Positions 97 through 53,422 of a stretch of 53,565 nucleotides of DNA are shown here, one piece after another. The notes under the pieces were generated by a model. That model was not told where the DNA came from. It worked only from the letters and a program-made list of their open reading frames with translations, and searched no databases. The position numbers and the translations under genes are program-made. Within the stretch, counting starts at the first letter, position 1. Each line of letters opens with the position of its first letter. Source of the DNA: Selenomonas ruminantium subsp. ruminantium ATCC 12561 (GTDB lineage: Bacteria > Bacillota > Negativicutes > Selenomonadales > Selenomonadaceae); the NCBI RefSeq assembly GCF_000424065.1, contig NZ_KE384128.1, positions 14,194 through 67,758 on the forward strand, given 5' to 3'.

Positions 97-558
97 GCTA
101 AGGCTCGCAAACAGGCTGAAGCCAAACGCAAAGCTCATGAAAAGCAGCTCCGTCAGGAGATATCCACTATGGATAACCTGGACGCTATTTTGGACTTTGC
201 CTATGAAGCCAAAGATTCAGAACCAAAAGATGCAATCTTTGCATATCAGGAAGCGATTGCCCGTTATGCGGATGACGATTATACACCATTCCTCGTTATT
301 GAACTGGGTAATCTGTACAAAGCACAAGCCAACTATAGCGGCGCTATCGCCACCTATAAGAAGGCGCTTGATATGCCGATAATCGCCCAAAACGATGCCA
401 TGTGTCAGGAATTCACCAAAAATATCCATTACCTTGGCACCGTTCAGGATATACTCGCCAAACATGCTGCGCTTTCTACGCCTTTCCCGCAGATTCCGGG
501 AGATATTATGCAGGAAATTGAAAAGGAATTTCAAGCTCATAGTGACAGCGCAAAATAA
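1..558 (+). CDS. Lys/Ala-repeat, TPR-like protein (5'-truncated by window edge)
   Basis: The reading frame is open from base 1, so the gene starts before the window. The visible part begins with about 50 residues of Lys/Ala/Glu-rich sequence, including a 16-residue unit (AKAKAEAEAKKKAAAE) repeated twice, as in TolA-like or coiled-coil stalks. It continues into a helical domain of about 130 residues whose spacing (DAIFAYQEAIARY, then GAIATYKKALDMP) resembles a pair of tetratricopeptide helices. It ends 14 bases before the next gene, which has its own Shine-Dalgarno site, so the two are probably co-transcribed. The function is not recognised. A role in the envelope or in protein-protein contact is an inference from the repeat and TPR-like parts only. 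The ATG at 169 is internal and is unlikely to be the start, because the repeat upstream is in frame and codon-like. Confidence 0.7.
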   Translation, partial: AKAKAEAEAKKKAAAEAKAKAEAEAKKKAAAEAKARKQAEAKRKAHEKQLRQEISTMDNLDAILDFAYEAKDSEPKDAIFAYQEAIARYADDDYTPFLVIELGNLYKAQANYSGAIATYKKALDMPIIAQNDAMCQEFTKNIHYLGTVQDILAKHAALSTPFPQIPGDIMQEIEKEFQAHSDSAK

Positions 559-572
559 TTGGAGGAATTTTA

Positions 573-1589
573 ATGAAGAAAAGTGTAGAAATCCTGGGCC
601 TTCCCATTATCAGCATCACGGAAGGCCGTGAGCTGGGTGTCAGCAAAACCCTGCTCATCGATGCTAAAAACGGTACGGTAGCAGCCATCACCATTGAAGA
701 TGCCGACTGGTATCTGGGTGTGAAACTCATTCCGTACGAATCGGTCATTGCTATCGGTGACGATGCAGTAACCATTACCAACAGCGAAAACATCCTTACT
801 CTCGACGATGCTGGTGATTACAAAGATCTGTTGATTACGAACATCCGCATCCTTGACACCAAGGCTATAACCAAATCCGGTACGATTCAAGGTAAAGTCA
901 CCGAACTCTACATCGGTGACGACGGCAAAATTGAAAAATGCGAAATCACAGCACCCGATGGCACAACTTCCGACATTGCTACTGACCAGATTTCCATCTT
1001 TGGTAAGCAGGTAACGGTTATTGACCCCACCGGGGAAAAAAAAAATGATGTGATGTCCCGAGTTTCTAAAGCCCCGGAAGCAGCTCCAAGCCCCAAGGCA
1101 GCGCCAGCAGCTCTGGAAGTACCGGCTGCTCCAGCCGCTCCGGTTGCTCCGGCAGTTCCAGAAGCTCCGAAAGCTGAAGAAATGCCAAAAGTCGAAGAAG
1201 CACCGAAGGCTGAAGAAACTCCGAAAGCCGCAGAGGCTCCGAAAGCTCCCGAAGTTACCCCTGCTCCTGCAGAGAAAGCAGAAAAGGCAGAGGAAGCACC
1301 GAAGGCTGACGCTCCAAAAGAAGACGAAAAAACGGACCCCAAGAAAGAAGCTCCAAAGGCTGAGCCTAAGAAAGATGCACCGAAAGCTGACGCCGCAAAA
1401 CAGGCTGCTGCTGACAAAGCATCCGAGGAACGTCATCGTCGATTTCTCCTGGGTAAAAAAGCCGCTCGCGACATTAAGATGGATAACGGCATCGTTATCG
1501 TAGAAGCTGGCCAGGACATCACCGAAGAAGTTCTGCAGAAGGCAAAACTGGCTAACAAGTTCATCGAACTTTCCATGAACGTACAGTAA
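573..1589 (+). CDS. PRC-barrel domain protein with long Ala/Pro/Lys/Glu linker
   Basis: A 338-residue protein with start ATG at 573 preceded by GGAGG at a normal distance. Residues 1 to about 80 form a PRC-barrel-like beta domain (VEILGLPIISITEGRELG, later IPYESVIAIGDDAVTI). A second similar unit follows at about 88-160 (GTIQGKVTELYIGDDGKIE). Residues 165-285 are a low-complexity linker rich in EAPKAEE-type repeats. The last 55 residues (GKKAARDIKMDNGIVIVEAG and following) look folded. PRC barrels occur in RNA-processing and photosynthesis proteins, but this architecture does not point to one job. It sits directly behind the TPR-like gene and is followed by a strong terminator. No signal peptide is visible, so it is probably cytoplasmic. 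Confidence 0.8.
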   Translation: MKKSVEILGLPIISITEGRELGVSKTLLIDAKNGTVAAITIEDADWYLGVKLIPYESVIAIGDDAVTITNSENILTLDDAGDYKDLLITNIRILDTKAITKSGTIQGKVTELYIGDDGKIEKCEITAPDGTTSDIATDQISIFGKQVTVIDPTGEKKNDVMSRVSKAPEAAPSPKAAPAALEVPAAPAAPVAPAVPEAPKAEEMPKVEEAPKAEETPKAAEAPKAPEVTPAPAEKAEKAEEAPKADAPKEDEKTDPKKEAPKAEPKKDAPKADAAKQAAADKASEERHRRFLLGKKAARDIKMDNGIVIVEAGQDITEEVLQKAKLANKFIELSMNVQ

Positions 1590-1590
1590 T

Positions 1591-1638
1591 AAAAAAAGAG
1601 ATTCGATATGTCAAAACGCATACCGAATCTCTTTTTTA
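1591..1638. terminator. Bidirectional rho-independent terminator
   Basis: A-rich lead, then a stem of AGAGATTCG(A)TATG against CATACCGAATCTCT, ending in a T-run. It lies between the forward PRC-barrel gene and the end of the reverse-strand polysaccharide operon, and it has A/T runs on both sides, so it can serve both. Confidence 0.85.
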
Positions 1639-1815
1639 TTACCATGATTTATCATCCTGTGGCAAATTCTCCAATGCATATTCACAGCATTGCTTTACGA
1701 GATTATTGACCGAAACATTCTTTTCCCTTGCGACCCGTTCCAACTGGTCTAAGAGTTCCTGCGGAAACCGGAAGGTCTTATTCACCATATCCTGACTTTG
1801 CTTTACCACAAACAC
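1639..1815 (-). CDS. Small ribbon-helix-helix (Arc/CopG-like) protein
   Basis: A 58-residue ORF read from a GTG at 1815 to TAA at 1639, with a GGAGGG Shine-Dalgarno site 5 bases upstream of the GTG. The pattern is typical of ribbon-helix-helix DNA-binding proteins: a short beta strand (NKTFRFPQELLDQLER), a helix, then a turn and second helix (REKNVSVNNLVKQCCEYALE). It lies 14 bases after the resolvase-like gene and is the last gene of the reverse-strand operon before the bidirectional terminator. It could autoregulate the tail of the operon or act as a repressor elsewhere. No toxin partner is recognisable next to it. The call rests on pattern, Shine-Dalgarno site and codon use, not on a search. 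Confidence 0.75.
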   Translation of the reverse strand: MFVVKQSQDMVNKTFRFPQELLDQLERVAREKNVSVNNLVKQCCEYALENLPQDDKSW

Positions 1816-1829
1816 GCTATCCCTCCTTC

Positions 1830-2396
1830 CTAACTCTGTCGATACCGTTTTGCCAACCGATAAAATGTTGCCCGCGATATTTTAAGTTCATTACTGGCCT
1901 CCAATGCACGGATTTCCTTGGCCTGATAGCGGCCAAAAATACGTTTCCAGCCCTTGGGATAACCAATCGCCGGACGCCCAAACTGACGTCCGGCATTTTT
2001 GGCTGCCTGTATCCCTTCCTGCTGACGTATACGGTGCAATGCCTGCAAACTATCTTGTCTCTGTTGTAGCACAAGCAATATTTCCTTCAACGTCTGAAAA
2101 ACTACCGCCGCAGATACTTCATCCAAATCCTGCAAAGTTATCGGCAGATCCAAAATCCGCAGCCGGATATGCTCTGCCTGCAAAGAATCCAACTCTGCAC
2201 CAATCGCCGCCGCACTATCGCCCAATGCAGACCAATGTACCACGACAAGCGTATCTCCTTCCCGCATAAACCGCCGCAGAATTTGATACTGCCCTCGCTC
2301 CGCCATGTCCTCTAAGATGATATCCATGGCAGCATAAGCACATAACGCATCCGCATCTGCATCAGACTCCGCATATCCATATACCTTTGCCGCCAT
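1830..2396 (-). CDS. Serine-recombinase-like protein lacking the catalytic residues
   Basis: A 188-residue protein. The ATG at 2396 is chosen because GGGAGGTGAT sits just upstream; a longer start at 2417 has no such site. The overall layout is that of a small resolvase/invertase: N-terminal beta strand KVYGYAES, a segment GDTLVVVHWSALGDS where active enzymes have the LDRLGRS-type motif, a long helix, then a C-terminal helix-turn-helix (KEIRALEASNELKISRATFYRLAKRY). The nucleophile context (normally R-V-S in YxRVS) reads A-E-S, and the conserved Asp/Arg/Arg cluster is lost. The protein is therefore probably a DNA-binding remnant or regulator and not an active recombinase. It follows fnlB by 49 bases on the same strand and precedes the ribbon-helix-helix gene. 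Confidence 0.75.
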   Translation of the reverse strand: MAAKVYGYAESDADADALCAYAAMDIILEDMAERGQYQILRRFMREGDTLVVVHWSALGDSAAAIGAELDSLQAEHIRLRILDLPITLQDLDEVSAAVVFQTLKEILLVLQQRQDSLQALHRIRQQEGIQAAKNAGRQFGRPAIGYPKGWKRIFGRYQAKEIRALEASNELKISRATFYRLAKRYRQS

Positions 2397-2445
2397 AAAT
2401 ATCACCTCCCGCACCAAAAATGGTTATCCTGCGTCTATAAGTAAA

Positions 2446-3681
2446 TCAAACCGGCTCAAAAAACGTATCCGGTCTATTGGCATCAAACAATTCATTAGCC
2501 CACATAACCGTCACTAAATTTTCAGTTTCGGACAAATTGATAATATTATGCGTATATCCCGGCAGCATATGAATCGCCTGTATCCTATCGCCGCTGACTT
2601 CGAACTCGATAACTTCATCCGTACCGATTTTTCGTTCCTGTATCAAGCCATGACCGGCAACCACAATAAAGAACTCCCACTTGCTGTTATGCCAATGCTG
2701 TCCTTTGGTTATTCCCGGCTTGCTGATATTCACCGAAAACTGACCATGCTCAGCGGTCTTCAGCAGCTCCGTAAAGCTGCCGCGGTCATCGCAGTTCATC
2801 TTTAAATCAAAAGCGACTTTCTCCTTCGGCAAATAGGACAGATACATACTATATAGTTTCTTGGCAAAGCTGCCTTCTGGAATTGCCGGCATGATAAGAT
2901 TCTGCGGCTGGTCATGGAAGGTATGCAGAAGTTCCACAATCTGCCCTAACGTAGCCTTATGCGTAACCGGGGCATAGCAATAACGACCAGTTTCAGTTGG
3001 TTTCGCCGTCAAGCCATCATATGTAATGCCCTCAATCACTTCTCCTGTTTTGGGATACTCACAGCGCACAGCCTTGCCTTCGAGCAAGTCATACATAACT
3101 TCCAACAGGTCATCAATGAACAACATTTCCAATTCTACGGACGGATCATTTACCGTTATCGGCAAATCATGGGCAATATTATGGCAAAAGGTTCCTAATG
3201 CAGAATTATAGTTGGGACGTACCCATTTACCAACCAAATTAGGAAAACGATACACATAAACAGGCGCACCTGTTTCCTCACCATACCGGAAAAACAGTTC
3301 CTCCCCGTCCCGCTTGCTCAGGCCATACTCCGACGTTCCAAAACGGCCAGCCAGCGTTGCCTGCAAAGACGAACTCAACATCACTGGGCATTTGTTATTG
3401 TGTTTTTTCAACGTATCGAGCAGGACACTGGCAAAACCAAAATTCCCTGCCTTAAATTCTTTCGGGTCTTTGGGGCGGTTTACCCCTGCAAGGTTAAAGA
3501 CGAAATCACAGTCAGCACAAAACTGCTCCAAATCCTCTACCGTGTTATGACGGTCATATTCATAAATCGCCTGAATGGATATATTGGGCCGCGTTCTATT
3601 CTTTCCAGCCTGAATATTTTTCAAGTTCTCTACAAGATTGCGGCCGACAAAGCCCGCCGCACCTGTTACCAGTATCTTCAT
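2446..3681 (-). CDS. fnlB: UDP-2-acetamido-2,6-dideoxy-hexulose/talose reductase, FnlB/CapF/WbjC type
   Basis: A 411-residue bifunctional enzyme. The N-terminal two-thirds is an SDR with GAAGFVG in the first Rossmann loop and a YGLSK catalytic Tyr/Lys motif. The C-terminal part, from about residue 280, is a cupin (KPGITKGQHWHNSKWEFFIV and following). This domain pair is characteristic of the second enzyme of the UDP-N-acetyl-L-fucosamine pathway. In the family, the cupin epimerises and the SDR reduces the 4-keto sugar. The start at 3681 gives an ATGA overlap with fnlC; an in-frame ATG at 3696 is possible but deeper in the upstream gene. It is the last of three consecutive genes (fnlA, fnlC, fnlB) for one pathway. 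Confidence 0.9.
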   Translation of the reverse strand: MKILVTGAAGFVGRNLVENLKNIQAGKNRTRPNISIQAIYEYDRHNTVEDLEQFCADCDFVFNLAGVNRPKDPKEFKAGNFGFASVLLDTLKKHNNKCPVMLSSSLQATLAGRFGTSEYGLSKRDGEELFFRYGEETGAPVYVYRFPNLVGKWVRPNYNSALGTFCHNIAHDLPITVNDPSVELEMLFIDDLLEVMYDLLEGKAVRCEYPKTGEVIEGITYDGLTAKPTETGRYCYAPVTHKATLGQIVELLHTFHDQPQNLIMPAIPEGSFAKKLYSMYLSYLPKEKVAFDLKMNCDDRGSFTELLKTAEHGQFSVNISKPGITKGQHWHNSKWEFFIVVAGHGLIQERKIGTDEVIEFEVSGDRIQAIHMLPGYTHNIINLSETENLVTVMWANELFDANRPDTFFEPV

Positions 3682-23489: not shown

Positions 23490-23519
23490 AAAAAAAGCCC
23501 GTCCCGCAAAGGGACGGAC
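23490..23519 (-). terminator. T-box-controlled terminator
   Basis: GC-rich 9-bp hairpin followed by seven T on the reverse strand, about 40 bases before the MFS start codon. It competes with the T-box antiterminator. Confidence 0.9.
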
Positions 23520-23790
23520 TCATTATCCGTGTTACCACCCAAATTCCCTGCGCAAGAGCAGGGCACTCTGCAACGTACCAACATACGCGGCTTCTGTAAC
23601 GGGAAACGCCCGTGGCCGCTTACTGAATTTGACTATGCAAATACTTCAGCGCCATACCTCAAGGATGATTTTCCATTTGCGCTGGACTATCGGCTTCCAC
23701 CTTTCCGACTCGCTGGCAATCCGCTGACAAATTTACTCTTTCCTATCATCGATTGTATTCTATATGGAGATTTTTGTTTTCCAAATCACA
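23490..23790 (-). promoter_or_regulatory. T-box riboswitch leader of the MFS gene
   Basis: Read on the reverse strand, the leader has the stem I hallmarks: AGAGTA near the base, then CAGCGAGTCGG, GGTGGAAGCCGA. It also has the T-box antiterminator sequence GGGTGGTAACACGG at 23540-23527, followed by a terminator hairpin (GTCCGTCCC / GGGACGGGC plus T-run) at 23519-23490. The UGGU in the T-box implies a tRNA with discriminator A. The specifier triplet cannot be fixed by eye. In the lower 3' side of stem I (TGGAAAATCATCC) the readings ATC (Ile) and AAA (Lys) agree with an A discriminator, while GGA (Gly) does not. Confidence 0.88.
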
Positions 23791-30849: not shown

Positions 30850-32538
30850 TTATTTATCCGTATTCACTTTGATATCTTTTATGCCATAGAAAATGCACAG
30901 ACCATGCTTAGTTACACCATTATCGAAATCCGCAAAGAAGACATGGCGCAGAGCACGGTTCTGCATCGCAATCGGCTCCATATAGGCAATCGGCTCACCC
31001 TTTTGCGCCGCCTCCTGTACGATGGCAATACGGGCATCATTTTCCTGGCGCATGGTATAGGTAACCAGGAGGGCTGCCGACATCGTGAACGCCGCCAGTC
31101 CCAGCGCCCCCGCCGTCAGCACCTTCTGTCCATGACTAGCGAAATAACCGCGAATCAAGGGCTCTCGCAAAATGGCAATCGCTGCAATGATAATCATAGC
31201 CACCGAGCTAAAGGTTGCCCGCGCAGGGAACGTCGGCGCAGCAATCATCACGAAATTGTTCAGCAAAGCCAAAGCCAGCATACAGCCAGCATAGCGCACA
31301 GCGGGGAATGCCTGCCAAACATCCCGCGCCTTGACTTTCTCAGCCAGCAACTTGATAACCGGCGTGGTCAGCCCCAGCTGTTTTTTGACCAAAGCGTAGA
31401 CAAAGAAAATGGTCAGCCAGTAAATGGCCATTTCATCAAAGCCCTTGAACAGATTATCGAAATGGTCAATGGTCTTCTGCTTGGTCAGCCCCAACGGCAC
31501 CATCACAGCCGCATAGAGGATATCCCGTACAGTCCAGGCCACGAAACTGTCATTGAAGTAGGAAACAACGAGGAGCAGGATAATCCCCAAAATCAGCCAT
31601 TGCCGCCAGCCAAAGCTCAACAAACCACGCTCAATCTGCTCCCCCTTTTGACTGGCCAGTTCCAGCTTAAAGACACGCCAGGCGCACAGCAGCAACAAAA
31701 CCATCGGCAGAATATAGAGCAGCATTTCACCATTGCCCGCAAACTGATTGCCGATATGCGCAAAAATGCCTTTGCCAGCCCCTTGGTCATCATAACGGAC
31801 AAAATTGCCCGGCGCGCCCACAAGGCCGATAAGCCCAAGCAATGCGCCCAAAGCTCCGGCAGGCATCCAGCCCGCCATCTTCCCCTGATGGCGCAGATAC
31901 CAGCTGCTGCCAGCCGTCAGTGCCACCACGGTCACGGCCAGATTTTCCACCGACCAGCCCGCGATAATACCCAACAAAAACATGGGGAGTATTGCCCATT
32001 TTCCAAGCGCCGACGTTCCTTTGGCCAATGTAATATTGTAGGGCAGGAGAAAGAGCGCTGCCGGTACGGCCGACCAAAGGTAAACCGTAGAGCCGCTTTT
32101 CCAGACAGCGACTTCACCAAAGTGCGGAAAGGAAAGCCAGGCCAAAAGCCCCGTAACGGCTAACATCAACGGCTCCTGTCGCAATTCCACCGAACGTCGG
32201 GCATGAAAATACATCAGCACGACCAAGGCCGTAAACATCAAGGCATTAGCCATATCAAAAGCAAACTTGCCCACCCAAAGGAAGAAATTCAAACATAAAA
32301 CCGTAAACATGCGCCCGCCGTGGAGCATATAATGACGATAGGCAGAATATACCACATCCTGCACACTGCCCAGATGTTCTGCCGTCATCCACACCACCGA
32401 GTAATCGTAGTCATCACGATGCAGCGGCATCAAATAGTTCAGTACCAACATAAACAGAAACAGCCCTAGTAATACCAGCAAATTTCTGCCTAAACAGTTT
32501 TGACTCTGCGACAAATCCTCACTCTCCCCTGTTGTCAA
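30850..32538 (-). CDS. DUF6056-type polytopic membrane protein (putative GT-C glycosyltransferase)
   Basis: A 562-residue integral membrane protein with about 10-12 transmembrane helices. The first loop, after the first helix, carries MPLHRDDYDYSVVW. This H-x-D-D motif is shared by the DUF6056 family and resembles the Asp pair of GT-C glycosyltransferases. A second loop has GGRMF, and a later loop has WKSGSTVYLWS. Its start overlaps the preceding GtrB-like gene as ATGA. That arrangement is typical of Gtr-type systems, in which GtrB charges undecaprenyl phosphate and a polytopic GtrC-like protein moves the sugar to a surface glycan. The transferase role is an inference from context and motif. 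Confidence 0.75.
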   Translation of the reverse strand: MTTGESEDLSQSQNCLGRNLLVLLGLFLFMLVLNYLMPLHRDDYDYSVVWMTAEHLGSVQDVVYSAYRHYMLHGGRMFTVLCLNFFLWVGKFAFDMANALMFTALVVLMYFHARRSVELRQEPLMLAVTGLLAWLSFPHFGEVAVWKSGSTVYLWSAVPAALFLLPYNITLAKGTSALGKWAILPMFLLGIIAGWSVENLAVTVVALTAGSSWYLRHQGKMAGWMPAGALGALLGLIGLVGAPGNFVRYDDQGAGKGIFAHIGNQFAGNGEMLLYILPMVLLLLCAWRVFKLELASQKGEQIERGLLSFGWRQWLILGIILLLVVSYFNDSFVAWTVRDILYAAVMVPLGLTKQKTIDHFDNLFKGFDEMAIYWLTIFFVYALVKKQLGLTTPVIKLLAEKVKARDVWQAFPAVRYAGCMLALALLNNFVMIAAPTFPARATFSSVAMIIIAAIAILREPLIRGYFASHGQKVLTAGALGLAAFTMSAALLVTYTMRQENDARIAIVQEAAQKGEPIAYMEPIAMQNRALRHVFFADFDNGVTKHGLCIFYGIKDIKVNTDK

Positions 32539-33515
32539 TCGCGTTCATGGGGCAGCCAATTAGCCTGACTGCCATAAATCATCTTTTTCCCATTATGCTC
32601 ATCTATCAAGTAGACCGGCCTGCCCTTGCTCTCTGTAAACACGCGGCCCAGATACTCACCGATAATTCCCAAAGACAGCAGCTGTACGCCGCCCAAAAAG
32701 AGGATAACCGTCATCATCGTGGGATATCCCGCTACGGGATCACCATAACAAAGGGCATTAAACAGCACCCAACACATAAAAATCATCGCCAGCCCCGATA
32801 CACCCAACCCCAAAATTGTGGTCAAACGCAAAGGCGCTGTGGTAAAGGAGGTAATGCCCTCCACTGCCAGATTATACAAGGCGAAATAACTCCATGTCGT
32901 CGTGCCCGCGGCCCGCTGCCGCACATGAAACGGAATTTCTTTTTTGCGATAGCCCACCCAGGTAAACATGCCCTTGGTAAACCGCTGATTCTCCCGCATC
33001 AGACGCAGCGCCGCCACGCAGCGTTTATCGAGCAGACGGAAATCGCCTACATCCCGCTGTACCCGAAAGCGGGAAACAGCCTGCAGGCAACGATAAAACA
33101 GATTCGCCATAGTGCGCTTAAACCAGGTTTCATCGGCCCTGTCCGTACGCTTGGCGCAGACATCATCATAGCCCTTGTGCCACCAGTCAATCATCTCCGG
33201 AATCAGCTCCGGCGGATGCTGCAAATCCGCATCCATGATGATCACCGCATCACCATCAGCATAGTCAAGACCAGCCATCATAGCCGCTTCCTTGCCGAAG
33301 TTCCGCGACAAGCTCAAATAATTCACCGCCGCCTCACGCGCTGATAACGCCTGCAACAACGAAAGCGTATTATCCCGGCTGCCATCATTAACAAATAAAT
33401 ATGTAAACTCACATCCCGGAACCCCATTCAGAATCCGAGACACTTCCGTATAAAATTTCTCGATTACTTCCTGCTCGTTATAACAGGGAACAATTATTGT
33501 TATTTTGTCCATCAC
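32535..33515 (-). CDS. GtrB-like polyprenyl-phosphate glycosyltransferase (GT2)
   Basis: A 326-residue protein. The GT-A domain has ITIIVPCYNEQEVIEKFY, VNDGSRDNTL, IIMDADLQHPPELIPEM and FRLLDKRCVAAL, as in GtrB/DPM1-like enzymes. Two C-terminal transmembrane helices (about 232-254 and 268-290) anchor it. It should transfer a hexose from UDP- or dTDP-sugar to undecaprenyl phosphate, feeding the DUF6056 protein behind it. A GtrA flippase is not seen here. A tandem array of palindromic elements lies directly upstream. Confidence 0.9.
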   Translation of the reverse strand: MMDKITIIVPCYNEQEVIEKFYTEVSRILNGVPGCEFTYLFVNDGSRDNTLSLLQALSAREAAVNYLSLSRNFGKEAAMMAGLDYADGDAVIIMDADLQHPPELIPEMIDWWHKGYDDVCAKRTDRADETWFKRTMANLFYRCLQAVSRFRVQRDVGDFRLLDKRCVAALRLMRENQRFTKGMFTWVGYRKKEIPFHVRQRAAGTTTWSYFALYNLAVEGITSFTTAPLRLTTILGLGVSGLAMIFMCWVLFNALCYGDPVAGYPTMMTVILFLGGVQLLSLGIIGEYLGRVFTESKGRPVYLIDEHNGKKMIYGSQANWLPHERD

Positions 33516-33590
33516 AACCTCCTTTCGGCCGTCCCCATTCTAACACTTTTGACAGGGCTTGTCGATAGCACAAACCAGTCTACAACGAAC

Positions 33591-33985
33591 TAAGCCGAGG
33601 GGATAGATGATGTTTTTCTGCAGCGTTTGACAAGCCTGTCTCAGCGAAAGAAAAATATTATCTATCCCCCCGGCGCCTTCGCACTTCACTGTAATGTACG
33701 CACTAAGCCCGCGGAGCTGGTGATGTTTTTCCGTAGCTTTTGACAAGCCTGTCTATGGCGAAGGAAAAATATTACCAGCTCCACGGGCGCCTTCGCATAT
33801 CGCTGTAATATACGCAGTAAGCCCGGGGGCCAGTGATGGCTTTCCGTAGCGTTTGACAAGCCTGCCTAAGCGAAGCAATTCATCACGCAGTAAGCCCGGG
33901 GGCTGGCAATGACTTTCCGCAGCGTTTGACAAGCCTGTCTAAGCGAAGGAAAGCCATTGCCAGCCCCCGGGCGCCTTTATAGCAC
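33591..33985 (+). repeat. Tandem array of four long palindromic elements (family A, copies 1-4)
   Basis: Units begin at 33591, 33704, 33818 and 33891 with (C)TAAGCCCG or a close variant, period about 113 bases (copy 3 lacks most of its 3' arm). Each full unit is a 5' arm of about 25 bases, a conserved core of about 27 bases containing TTTGACAAGCCTGTCTA, and a 3' arm that is the reverse complement of the 5' arm. Arm sequences differ between units, but each stays complementary to its partner. Between units there is a related linker (CTGTAATGTACGCA / CTGTAATATACGCA). It lies between the Crp/Fnr gene and the GtrB-like gene, both reverse-strand. Confidence 0.85.
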
Positions 33986-34000
33986 GATGTTAGCTTAGCG

Positions 34001-34699
34001 TTACAGGTATTCCTCAAACCTCTCCATATCCAGCACCCGAACCTTCTTCCCCTCGACCGCCAGAATCCCTTCCCGCTGCAAAGCCGAAAGTTCTCTGGAC
34101 AACGAAGGCCTGGTGACCGCCAGATAGGACGCCATAAACTCCCGGCTGCCGGCCAGTTCCAATTCCCGCCTGCCCTGCAATTCAATAAACAGGAAGCGGA
34201 TAATTTTCTCCCGCAGGGAACCGCTGGCCAGCACCTTGATTTTATTGTGCATAAAATAGGCCTTGCGGGCAAAGATGCGCATAAGGTTTCTTTGGATTTT
34301 CAACGCACTGCGGCTCATCTCGCCGCCGGCATCAAAAGAAAACAAACCGCTGGATATTTCCAGCAGTTTCACGGGCGTTACCGCCTCCACATACATATCG
34401 TAGGGCTGTTTCAAGACCTCGTAAACCTCACCGAACATATCCCCCGGCTCATTGATTTCCGACAGGAAAATACGCCGCCCGGAAAACGTATCCTTCAGGA
34501 TATGCACTTCGCCTGCCAATAGAATGTAGAGCGATTTGGGCATATCCCCCTCATGAAAGATGATTTCACCCTTGCTATATTCGCACTGGCGCACCTGTGC
34601 CGAGGCCAAAAGTTCCTGAACTTCCCCATCACTCATCCCCTGTGCCAATGAACATTGTTTCAGCAGGGAGCGCAACGACTCATTAGCTGTAGCTGCCAT
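34001..34699 (-). CDS. Crp/Fnr-family transcription regulator
   Basis: A 232-residue protein with an N-terminal cyclic-nucleotide-binding fold (KGEIIFHEGDMPKSLYILLAGEV and GDMFGEVYEV). A dimer helix and a C-terminal winged helix follow (REFMASYLAVTRPSLSRELSALQREGILAVEGKKV). The cAMP-contact residues are not conserved, so the ligand is unknown. No N-terminal Cys set for an Fe-S cluster is seen, unlike Fnr. It is 3 bases after the flavin reductase gene, so the two are one operon. That pairing suggests a redox or nitrogen-oxide stress role, which is an inference. Confidence 0.88.
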   Translation of the reverse strand: MAATANESLRSLLKQCSLAQGMSDGEVQELLASAQVRQCEYSKGEIIFHEGDMPKSLYILLAGEVHILKDTFSGRRIFLSEINEPGDMFGEVYEVLKQPYDMYVEAVTPVKLLEISSGLFSFDAGGEMSRSALKIQRNLMRIFARKAYFMHNKIKVLASGSLREKIIRFLFIELQGRRELELAGSREFMASYLAVTRPSLSRELSALQREGILAVEGKKVRVLDMERFEEYL

Positions 34700-45856: not shown

Positions 45857-45876
45857 AGAAAACAAATTCATCATAC

Positions 45877-46082
45877 TAAGCCCGTGGGAGCTGGTGATGT
45901 TTTCCGCAGCTTTTGACAAGCCTGTCTATGGCGAAGGAAAATATTACCAGCTCCCACGGGCGCCTTTGCACAACAATAGCAATACACAAACTAAGCCCGC
46001 GAGACTGGTGATGTTTTTCCGCAGCTTTTGACAAGCCTGTCTATGGCGAAGGAAAAATATTACCAGTCTTGCGGGCGTCTTA
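45877..46082 (+). repeat. Two tandem palindromic elements (family A, copies 5-6)
   Basis: Units at 45877-45967 and 45992-46082, same design and core (GCAGCTTTTGACAAGCCTG, then TCTATGGCGAAGG) as the array at 33591-33985, 12 kb away. Copy 5 arms: CCCGTGGGAGCTGGT and ACCAGCTCCCACGGG, perfectly paired and continued by G-T wobbles. Copy 6 has different arms (CCCGCGAGACTGGT, ACCAGTCTTGCGGG) that still pair. Located between two forward genes. Confidence 0.88.
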
Positions 46083-46104
46083 GCAACCAGATGTAAACCG
46101 CCCC

Positions 46105-46133: not shown

Positions 46134-46394
46134 ATGACTCATGGCAAAAGATGACATCATTGCTGTGAGTCATACTTTTATGAACAGGATTAATCTTAGC
46201 ATATAAAGGAAACTGCCTGGATTGTCAGAAACCGGGACAGTTTTAGGGGAATATGCTCGATTAAGGTTACTTTCCGTGCAATCAGTAAACAACAAGGCTG
46301 TGAAAGCATCTTTGCCGTTCTTGCGGGAACGCGTATGCTTTACAGCCTTTTTCTTTTGCCTGAACCATTTCCATTTTTATGAGGAGGTTTTTTT
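46134..46394 (+). promoter_or_regulatory. Structured leader with attenuator upstream of panS (candidate pan riboswitch)
   Basis: Three structures in order. (1) A dyad at 46134-46173 with ATGACTCA / TGAGTCAT ends. (2) A nested hairpin at 46190-46264: outer TTAATC..GCATAT with ATATGC..GATTAA; inner AAACTGCCTGG with CCGGG-A-CAGTTT, leaving one bulged A at 46237. (3) A terminator-like stem AAGGCTGT(G)AAAGCAT / ATGCTTTACAGCCTT at 46294-46349 followed by TTTTTCTTTT. The 'pan' RNA motif known from Firmicute pantothenate genes is a hairpin with bulged A residues; whether this leader belongs to it was not tested. Confidence 0.65.
46294..46357 (+). terminator. Attenuator hairpin before panS
   Basis: 15-bp stem with one bulge, GC-containing, ended by a T-rich tract, 37 bases before the panS start codon. 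It is placed to stop transcription before the operon. Confidence 0.8.
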
Positions 46395-53199: not shown

Positions 53200-53422
53200 A
53201 AAATAACATGAACATTTCACTTGTTGTTTATTTTTTCCGTTACTGAAAACTTATAAAAAGCCATAAACCTTCCGTAGAAAGTTAACTTTTATGTTCCATT
53301 CCTCATTCACCGCGTCCGCTTTTGCCGTCCCGAAGAACAGACTACTCACGTTTGATATAACGCTCCAGAGGCTTAAATTCCCGACTAACGAATCGGTACA
53401 TATCTGCATTGACTTGTTGGTG
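53200..53422 (-). other. Sequence downstream of tnpB: candidate omega-RNA / right-end region
   Basis: About 220 bases between the tnpB stop and the small gene at 52863-53141, with no convincing ORF. In IS605-family elements the 3' end of tnpB and the following bases form the omega (guide scaffold) RNA and the right end. A short hairpin AACTTTC-TACG-GAAGGTT is present near 53260-53285 (reverse strand). Exact ends cannot be fixed from this window. Confidence 0.4.

Follow-up and report, generated by a model that had tools for sequence, protein, structure and literature searches.

A family of long REP/MITE-like palindromic repeats with covarying arms in Selenomonas

Introduction

REPs are palindromic, extragenic sequences that occur in high copy number, often within about 20 bp of the 3' ends of open reading frames (ORFs), where they sometimes supply the stop codon (PMC3733652). 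In the parts of that survey drawn on here, they are described as lying mostly between tandem or convergent genes and as forming head-to-head dimers, including heterodimers. REPs are 20-40 bp long, and the CGTC REPs, with stems of 8-9 bp, have no known transposase according to the same parts (PMC3733652). Longer interspersed hairpins, of about 100-170 nt, are described for ERIC, YPAL and other long-hairpin MITE families in the sections cited of another paper (PMC2267715). In addition, template switching at quasi-palindromes is presented as an established mutation mechanism in microbes, and copying of one arm onto the other has been proposed to maintain the hairpins of RNA genes (Monttinen and Loytynoja 2022, PMC8794818, in the sections used here).

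The repeat discussed here is present in Selenomonas ruminantium subsp. ruminantium ATCC 12561, in a window of 53,565 nt (the whole stretch of DNA that was analysed; contig NZ_KE384128.1, 14,194-67,758). Like the REPs and REPINs of the survey sections cited above, it is palindromic, extragenic, high in copy number and near ORF 3' ends, and it forms head-to-head dimers; as with the CGTC REPs of those sections, an associated transposase is missing, as judged from a search for Y1 genes. Unlike those REPs, its arms are about 25-39 nt long and hypervariable, with a conserved apical part and tail, and head-to-tail arrays are common. Compared on these features alone, and from the cited parts of the ERIC and YPAL literature, it resembles these families as a long interspersed hairpin and differs from them in lineage. 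The repeat works like a REP or MITE, and its kind is known (a REP/BIME/MITE-like palindromic interspersed repeat); it is not assigned to a named family here. The earlier note on this DNA named no matching family, and no Rfam family reaches its gathering score on the window array: searches in gathering and E-value modes gave only sub-threshold hits, the best of them to microRNA hairpin models. No report of such repeats in Selenomonas was found among the papers listed in the literature searches, with subscription journals and preprints outside the search.

The Window Array and the Repeat Unit

The array at window positions 33591-33985 lies on the + strand between two genes of the - strand. These are a family 2 glycosyltransferase gene (32535-33515), with its 5' end towards the array, and a Crp-family regulator gene (cNMP_binding and HTH_Crp_2; 34001-34699), with its 3' end towards it. 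The earlier note had read four units with arms. Three of these are complete hairpins, at 33594-33674 (arms 33594-33619 and 33649-33674), 33707-33788 (arms with the apical part 33707-33745 and 33750-33788) and 33894-33972 (arms 33894-33918 and 33948-33972), and the third in order, from 33821 to about 33884, is truncated to a 5' arm and core. Since this unit is without a 3' arm of its own and the next unit follows 73 bases on, the array consists of three complete units and one truncated unit; the truncation is also present in the relative L084. Tails that act as linkers follow the first unit at 33675-33706 (GCCTTCGCACTTCACTGTAATGTACGCACTAA, with related tails at other loci) and the second at 33789-33820, and a terminal 3' tail at 33973-33994 (GCCTTTATAGCACGATGTTAGC) faces the stop codon of the regulator gene. 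A second + strand array, of two complete units, lies at 45875-46085, with cores at 45912 and 46027.

What had been noted about the architecture of the array was borne out in part. The units have a common core: TTTGACAAGCCTGTC, with at most three mismatches, matches the window 10 times, compared with a mean of 1.5 in shuffled sequence, and none of 100 shuffles reaches 10. The arms vary between units and each still pairs with its own partner in the three complete hairpins; the linkers are related, with a unit spacing of 113, 113 and 73; and all units have one orientation, opposite to both flanking genes. The repeating unit is also larger than the hairpin, as the 3' tail recurs at other loci. DNA folding of the three complete units gives z-scores of -6.0 to -9.0 on either strand.

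Around a 4-base loop stands an apical stem of 4 bp (GACA/TGTC). Moving outward, the unit continues with a small internal loop, a GC pair step and a second small internal loop, followed by a mostly conserved CC-TTT/AAA-GG step, a patch with a tendency to TATT in the 3' arm and to RATG in the 5' arm, the hypervariable arms, a foot and the 3' tail. The tail consensus, GYCTTAGCAY..CGATGTAAAC, is conserved at unrelated sites. The apical internal loops hold fixed non-Watson-Crick contacts (T.G 61, C.A 92, other 478). As read from the sequences, arms of the GGAGGG type and a CTTGTRYYTCGAA-like tail characterise a second subtype, and the versions in G017 and G004 have a different apical sequence in which pairing is still possible. 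The possibility that the arms derive from host terminators whose loop received an insert was rejected, because the sequence beyond the arms (foot and tail) is conserved at unrelated sites. An integron attC site, also considered, is improbable, the linkers being about 30 nt with no cassette.

Several other features of the window and its relatives were observed. A core-like sequence, TTTTGACAGGGCTTGTC, lies at 33546-33563 and is perhaps a decayed copy or a chance match; L084 reads differently there. In the reverse complement of L084 (2251-3330), two small ORFs stand in place of window units 1 and 2; by eye, we take them to be a RelB/RelE-type toxin-antitoxin pair. Rfam gathering scores are reached by a pan motif directly downstream of the second array (46148-46244, +), a RAGATH-18 RNA (53299-53371, -) and a T-box leader (23507-23758, -).

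Family Size and Distribution

A 15-base core with at most two mismatches gives 86+109 matches in the 3.39-Mb S. ruminantium genome (G000) against 5+1 in the control, and, as the core is nearly palindromic, certain places contribute a match on each strand. In the genome stretches analysed, 161 core matches were reduced to 143 by filtering out N-containing stretches, cut ends and matches that repeat a palindrome on its reverse strand, and 135 of the 143 are well-formed hairpins with good stems; at least one of the 143 is a chance match (L014, 3529, beside a tRNA). A covariance model (R1) was built from 50 copies out of 95 diverse ones (81 of type A and 14 of type B, themselves drawn from 130 well-folding copies), with odd-looking copies excluded by eye.

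The model has at least 150 matches in G000, 144-149 in G005 (146), G008, G016 and G020, 104-109 in G006, G010 (104) and G011 (105), and 20-38 in G003, G004, G013 and G017, counts in which one palindrome can match on both strands. A search of this kind across the class had been proposed in the earlier note. The model gave matches in 12 of the 22 genomes of the genus and none in the other 10, and the outcomes named beforehand as contrary (matches only within this strain, with random orientation and no covariation beyond recent duplication, or identity with a known MITE or transposon end) did not arise. With stricter filters, 200 genomes sampled evenly from the class included eight with matches, five from this genus and three from another family; the latter gave weak hits only (E 1e-7 to 6e-6), which by eye are a different long hairpin. 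An exact 21-base pattern was found in at least 94 stretches of named genomes, and the 80 matches listed are all from S. ruminantium MAGs. Plasmids, phages and viral contigs were searched for the repeat and gave no match. Judging from these comparisons of sequence, the repeat is probably a clade-specific family.

Some side observations were made in these searches. The three genomes of the other family (L238, L239, L240) carry another hairpin with long arms (GGTGGCAGATACC..GGTATCTGCCACC-like), whose interior is unrelated; it may represent an independent family of this kind. Contigs C3 and C7 of G000 have no core among the matches listed, despite the high genome average, and might be plasmids. 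Another dispersed repeat of intergenic DNA (..TTTAGAGCTATTTT.., matched on both strands) lies in the 3' flank of L031; the nine relatives searched have many matches to it, of about 70-79% identity.

Covariation of the Arms and Polarity of Mispairs

The proposal that pairing and not sequence is kept in the arms was supported. In the 50 copies, 97.1% of cells are paired, against 78.5% when shuffled and at most 56.8% when slid, and both sides are changed in 202 cells against 47. Changes on both sides are present in 18 of 24 pairs, and none of 500 shuffles reaches any of five covariation measures. In addition, the own partner arm beats a random partner in 131 of 143 copies.

Related sequences can exceed shuffles without structure, and orthologous copies at one site were therefore compared. 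Such pairs have flanks at least 85% identical (mean 92.5%), and 119 of 148 candidate pairs were kept, with 22 dropped by the flank rule, three for poor stems, one for gaps and three as duplicates. These pairs contain 131 changes from one Watson-Crick pair to another, patch included (e.g. L029, L073, L118, L158). When counted per site (49 sites with 120 copies, five dissimilar sites having been dropped), there are 36 extra Watson-Crick types outside the patch, 14 of them unreachable through G.U, and eight inside it. The covariation thus exceeds what recent duplication would leave, since paired changes also separate orthologous copies at one site. Subfamilies with common arms do exist, which would fit covariation as the mere common ancestry of subfamilies spread by recent duplication; given the paired changes at single sites, this explanation deserves next to no credence, unless gene conversion between sites explains all of them.

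The imperfect pairs had been described as mostly G-T on the + strand. This is the case in the stems of the five complete window copies (9 G.T and 3 A.C at stem positions 13-37, counted from the loop and without the apical internal loops), and across all 135 stems the excess is confined to the patch. At the same positions of 135 of the 143 stems, again excluding the apical internal loops, the patch, 19-23 nt from the loop, contains 196 G.T to 7 T.G, whereas outside it G.T/T.G and A.C/C.A number 40 and 45 in 2692 cells. The orthologous copies give a similar picture. Single changes in the 119 pairs are 43 G.T, 2 A.C and 4 others inside the patch and 44 G.T, 52 A.C and 59 others outside it; mispaired types at the 49 sites are 86 G.T, 4 A.C (p=4e-21) and 8 others inside and 24 G.T, 26 A.C (p=0.89) and 38 others outside. 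The fixed polarity of G.T makes one strand special in the patch. If an RNA helix were under selection, G.U would be expected to outnumber A.C on the transcribed strand; this excess was sought across the stem and was absent outside the patch (40 to 45 and 24 to 26).

The strand-symmetric mispairs of the stem outside the patch tell against a + strand RNA under selection and in favour of pairing maintained at the DNA level. Strand symmetry alone separates DNA from RNA weakly, as intrinsic terminators at the same loci, used as a control (48 orthologous matches of 62 terminators), gave only 24 G.U to 17 A.C in 478 pairs, and RNA from both strands would produce symmetric mispairs too, which counts against the DNA-level reading. 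In rRNA, 78.5% of two-step compensatory changes involved G-U, according to the section cited (PMC8794818); outside the patch, G.T makes up 24 of 88 non-Watson-Crick types, a measure that is not identical to the rRNA figure.

Arm-to-arm copying would produce paired changes without selection on RNA. It can be proposed, tentatively and with less than even confidence, that the arms covary through template switching at the DNA level with no RNA function, and that only the polar G.T patch is selected, for the + strand need of an enzyme that reads the hairpin. Adjacent compensated changes are in slight excess (14 against 8.9 expected, in 19 distinct sets, p=0.04), which fits copying of multiple bases at once. 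The orthologous sites have 88 mispaired types outside the patch against 36 compensated ones, and copying, if it acts, would thus not be instantaneous. Like the template-switch hairpins in the cited part of PMC8794818, the Selenomonas stems are perfect and renewed by paired changes; unlike them, the arms belong to a dispersed DNA repeat without G.U preference outside the patch and not to RNA genes.

Arrangement and Gene Context

Copies occur as solitary units, as head-to-tail arrays and as head-to-head pairs with the tails outward. The 3' neighbour (142 copies) is an element in the same direction in 56 cases, a gene 3' end in 51, a gene start in 25, far away in 10 and an inverted element in none; the 5' neighbour (139 copies) is an element in the same direction in 56, an inverted element in 36, a gene start in 19, a gene 3' end in 18 and far away in 10. 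According to these counts, tails tend to face stop codons, and inverted pairs stand head to head (36 copies) and never tail to tail. Among the 86 copies with no further element downstream, 51 have the 3' tail towards a stop codon, at a median of 24 nt from the approximate stem end, and in several cases the tail itself supplies the stop codon (e.g. L010, L021, L040). The orientation rule is a bias, as 18 copies have their 5' end towards a gene 3' end, at a median of 25.5 nt. Gene calls were simple longest ORFs of at least 110 codons, so that single assignments may be wrong.

The 60 clusters lie between tandem genes in 35 cases, convergent genes in 18 and divergent genes in 7, and between tandem genes 55 copies run against the gene direction and 25 with it. 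Orthologous loci of close relatives were compared 42 times, and in 23 of these comparisons the copy number was different; the set consists only of loci chosen for bearing the element, in which empty sites cannot appear. The change is by whole tandem units (L036 against L081) or by deletion at short repeats (G010 against G011).

These arrangements bear on the suggestion, made earlier from the covariation and the G-T pairs, that the repeat is a new + strand structured RNA (an sRNA or a cis-regulatory RNA) with its helix under selection. The strong covariation, the polar patch and the conservation of the internal loops and apical sequence would all suit such an RNA. It is nevertheless improbable and was not sustained: the stem mispairs are strand-symmetric outside the patch, most copies between tandem genes run against them, copy number changes between relatives, and the array is without an Rfam match at gathering score. 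A single + strand TTGACA-type promoter match (10 of 12 letters) is present in the array, and the scanned region has two against a shuffle mean of 0.7.

The Terminator Slot and the History of Single Sites

The repeat occupies the same post-gene slot as intrinsic (Rho-independent) terminators, and at three of five aligned sites the two alternate between genomes; it differs from them in its much longer stem, mostly without a T-run, and in being dispersed with a conserved core and tail. At the sites of L028 (L194, L195, L198, L199), L003 (L204-L206, L228) and L007 (L221, L227), element-free genomes carry, by eye, a short terminator-like hairpin in the slot, mostly with a T-run. The other two aligned sites, L039 and L040, have no clear terminator in element-free genomes. 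The L007 element in G010 and G011 has lost its apical part and kept its arms and tail.

Another junction, within the gene pair around L021:8551-8973, is element-free in eight other genomes of the genus (L168-L175). It contains elements in G000, G005, G010 and G017, remnants in G006 and G011, elements with an ORF between them in G008 and longer inserts without a core match in G003, G004 and G020; G016 has none. The empty junction is probably ancestral.

A strict terminator (hairpin with T-run) outside the element accompanies 2 of 58 element-bearing gene ends, against 22 of 92 element-free ones (Fisher p=5e-4), with unequal mean search lengths of 93 and 209 nt; when only ends with 40-200 searchable nt are taken, the counts are 1 of 45 and 10 of 39. 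With the element included in the search, 6 of the 58 element-bearing ends have a T-run hairpin, and no GC hairpin with an immediate T-run was found at window positions 33450-34100. Since canonical T-runs are rare beside the hairpin, it is position from which a terminator role is inferred.

A domesticated 3'-end element, with the hairpin selected on both strands for ending or protecting the mRNAs of the preceding and the converging gene, would also produce strand symmetry. The position after stop codons, the rarity of other canonical terminators there and the terminator-like hairpins in the slot of element-free genomes all favour it. We regard it as rather unlikely, since few element-bearing gene ends have a T-run, loss of the apical part is tolerated at one site (L222, L223), and truncated or deleted hairpins occur.

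Search for a Mobilising Enzyme

In head-to-head pairs, outward tails and post-stop position, the repeat matches the REPs of the survey sections cited (PMC3733652), as would be expected of a true REPIN mobilised by a RAYT/Y1 transposase. This identity is very doubtful. Y1_Tnp was not found in the element-rich G005, G010 and G011 and is present in five element-free genomes (G007, G012, G015, G019, G021); none of ten Y1 loci in G000 has an element core, most of these loci being cut by contig ends. In these same four genomes, a RAYT (Y1_Tnp) gene flanked by the repeat was accordingly not found, and the consensus of 50 copies contains no GTAG, the tag that stands unpaired at the hairpin foot of GTAG REPs. 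As for the CGTC REPs, which have a stem of 8-9 bp and a loop of 4-5, CGYC is present at the 3' foot of the repeat, but its stem is far longer than theirs. Contigs C4, C8, C20, C24, C27, C37, C39 and C59 of G000 end in fragments of an IS200-like Y1 transposase, probably from a multi-copy insertion sequence that breaks the assembly.

The tail was also searched as a terminal repeat. It occurs at 53 places in G000 against one in the control, and 28 of 205 tail matches in the loci analysed do not adjoin a core. An autonomous element with such tails was rejected, as the places read look like decayed copies, variant-core copies or chance matches; a transposase flanked by two tails was not seen. The head-to-head pairs have inverted tails at their ends, and solitary units carry the tail at one end only. 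The large inserts at the L021 junction (L176, L177, L179) were likewise set aside, being by eye not an evident mobilising enzyme. In L176 of G008 (501-3302), a 933-aa ORF, presumably flagellin-like (named by eye), lies inside an element array, between genes that adjoin in other genomes of the genus. No clean insertion with a target duplication, and no parental transposase, was recovered at the aligned sites or by the tail search; several of the sites examined are common to close relatives.

Conclusions

When the symmetry of the mispairs is combined with the polar patch, the variable copy number and the predominance of antisense positions, the best reading is a palindrome kept paired at the DNA level, with one strand-specific site. 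Somewhat better than even confidence is given to the explanation that these are clade-specific, large REP/MITE-like palindromes, probably spread by an enzyme, that lie in post-stop slots and have arms kept complementary at the DNA level. The repeat would be a non-autonomous element, spread by an enzyme that reads the folded + strand hairpin through its apical part and polar G.T patch and that may now be lost or unrecognised. Places after stop codons would have been tolerated or targeted, native terminators would then have decayed, and the hairpin would now mark the 3' ends of transcripts. Complementarity of the arms would be maintained at the level of the DNA palindrome, and the simplest means would be template switching from arm to arm during replication.

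In terms of biology, the family places a repeat at terminator positions across a clade, without a known mobilising enzyme, and it widens the range of REP-like elements by a lineage and a size class outside those in the survey sections cited here (PMC3733652). Covariation is widely taken as proof of RNA structure, and the Selenomonas family covaries strongly without an RNA-type strand preference except in a small patch. This makes the family well suited to testing whether mutagenesis at DNA hairpins can, by itself, imitate RNA covariation. If copying at the DNA level is true, strong covariation statistics would arise without selection on RNA, and the mechanism could be measured on the more than 100 orthologous copies, whose divergence is known.
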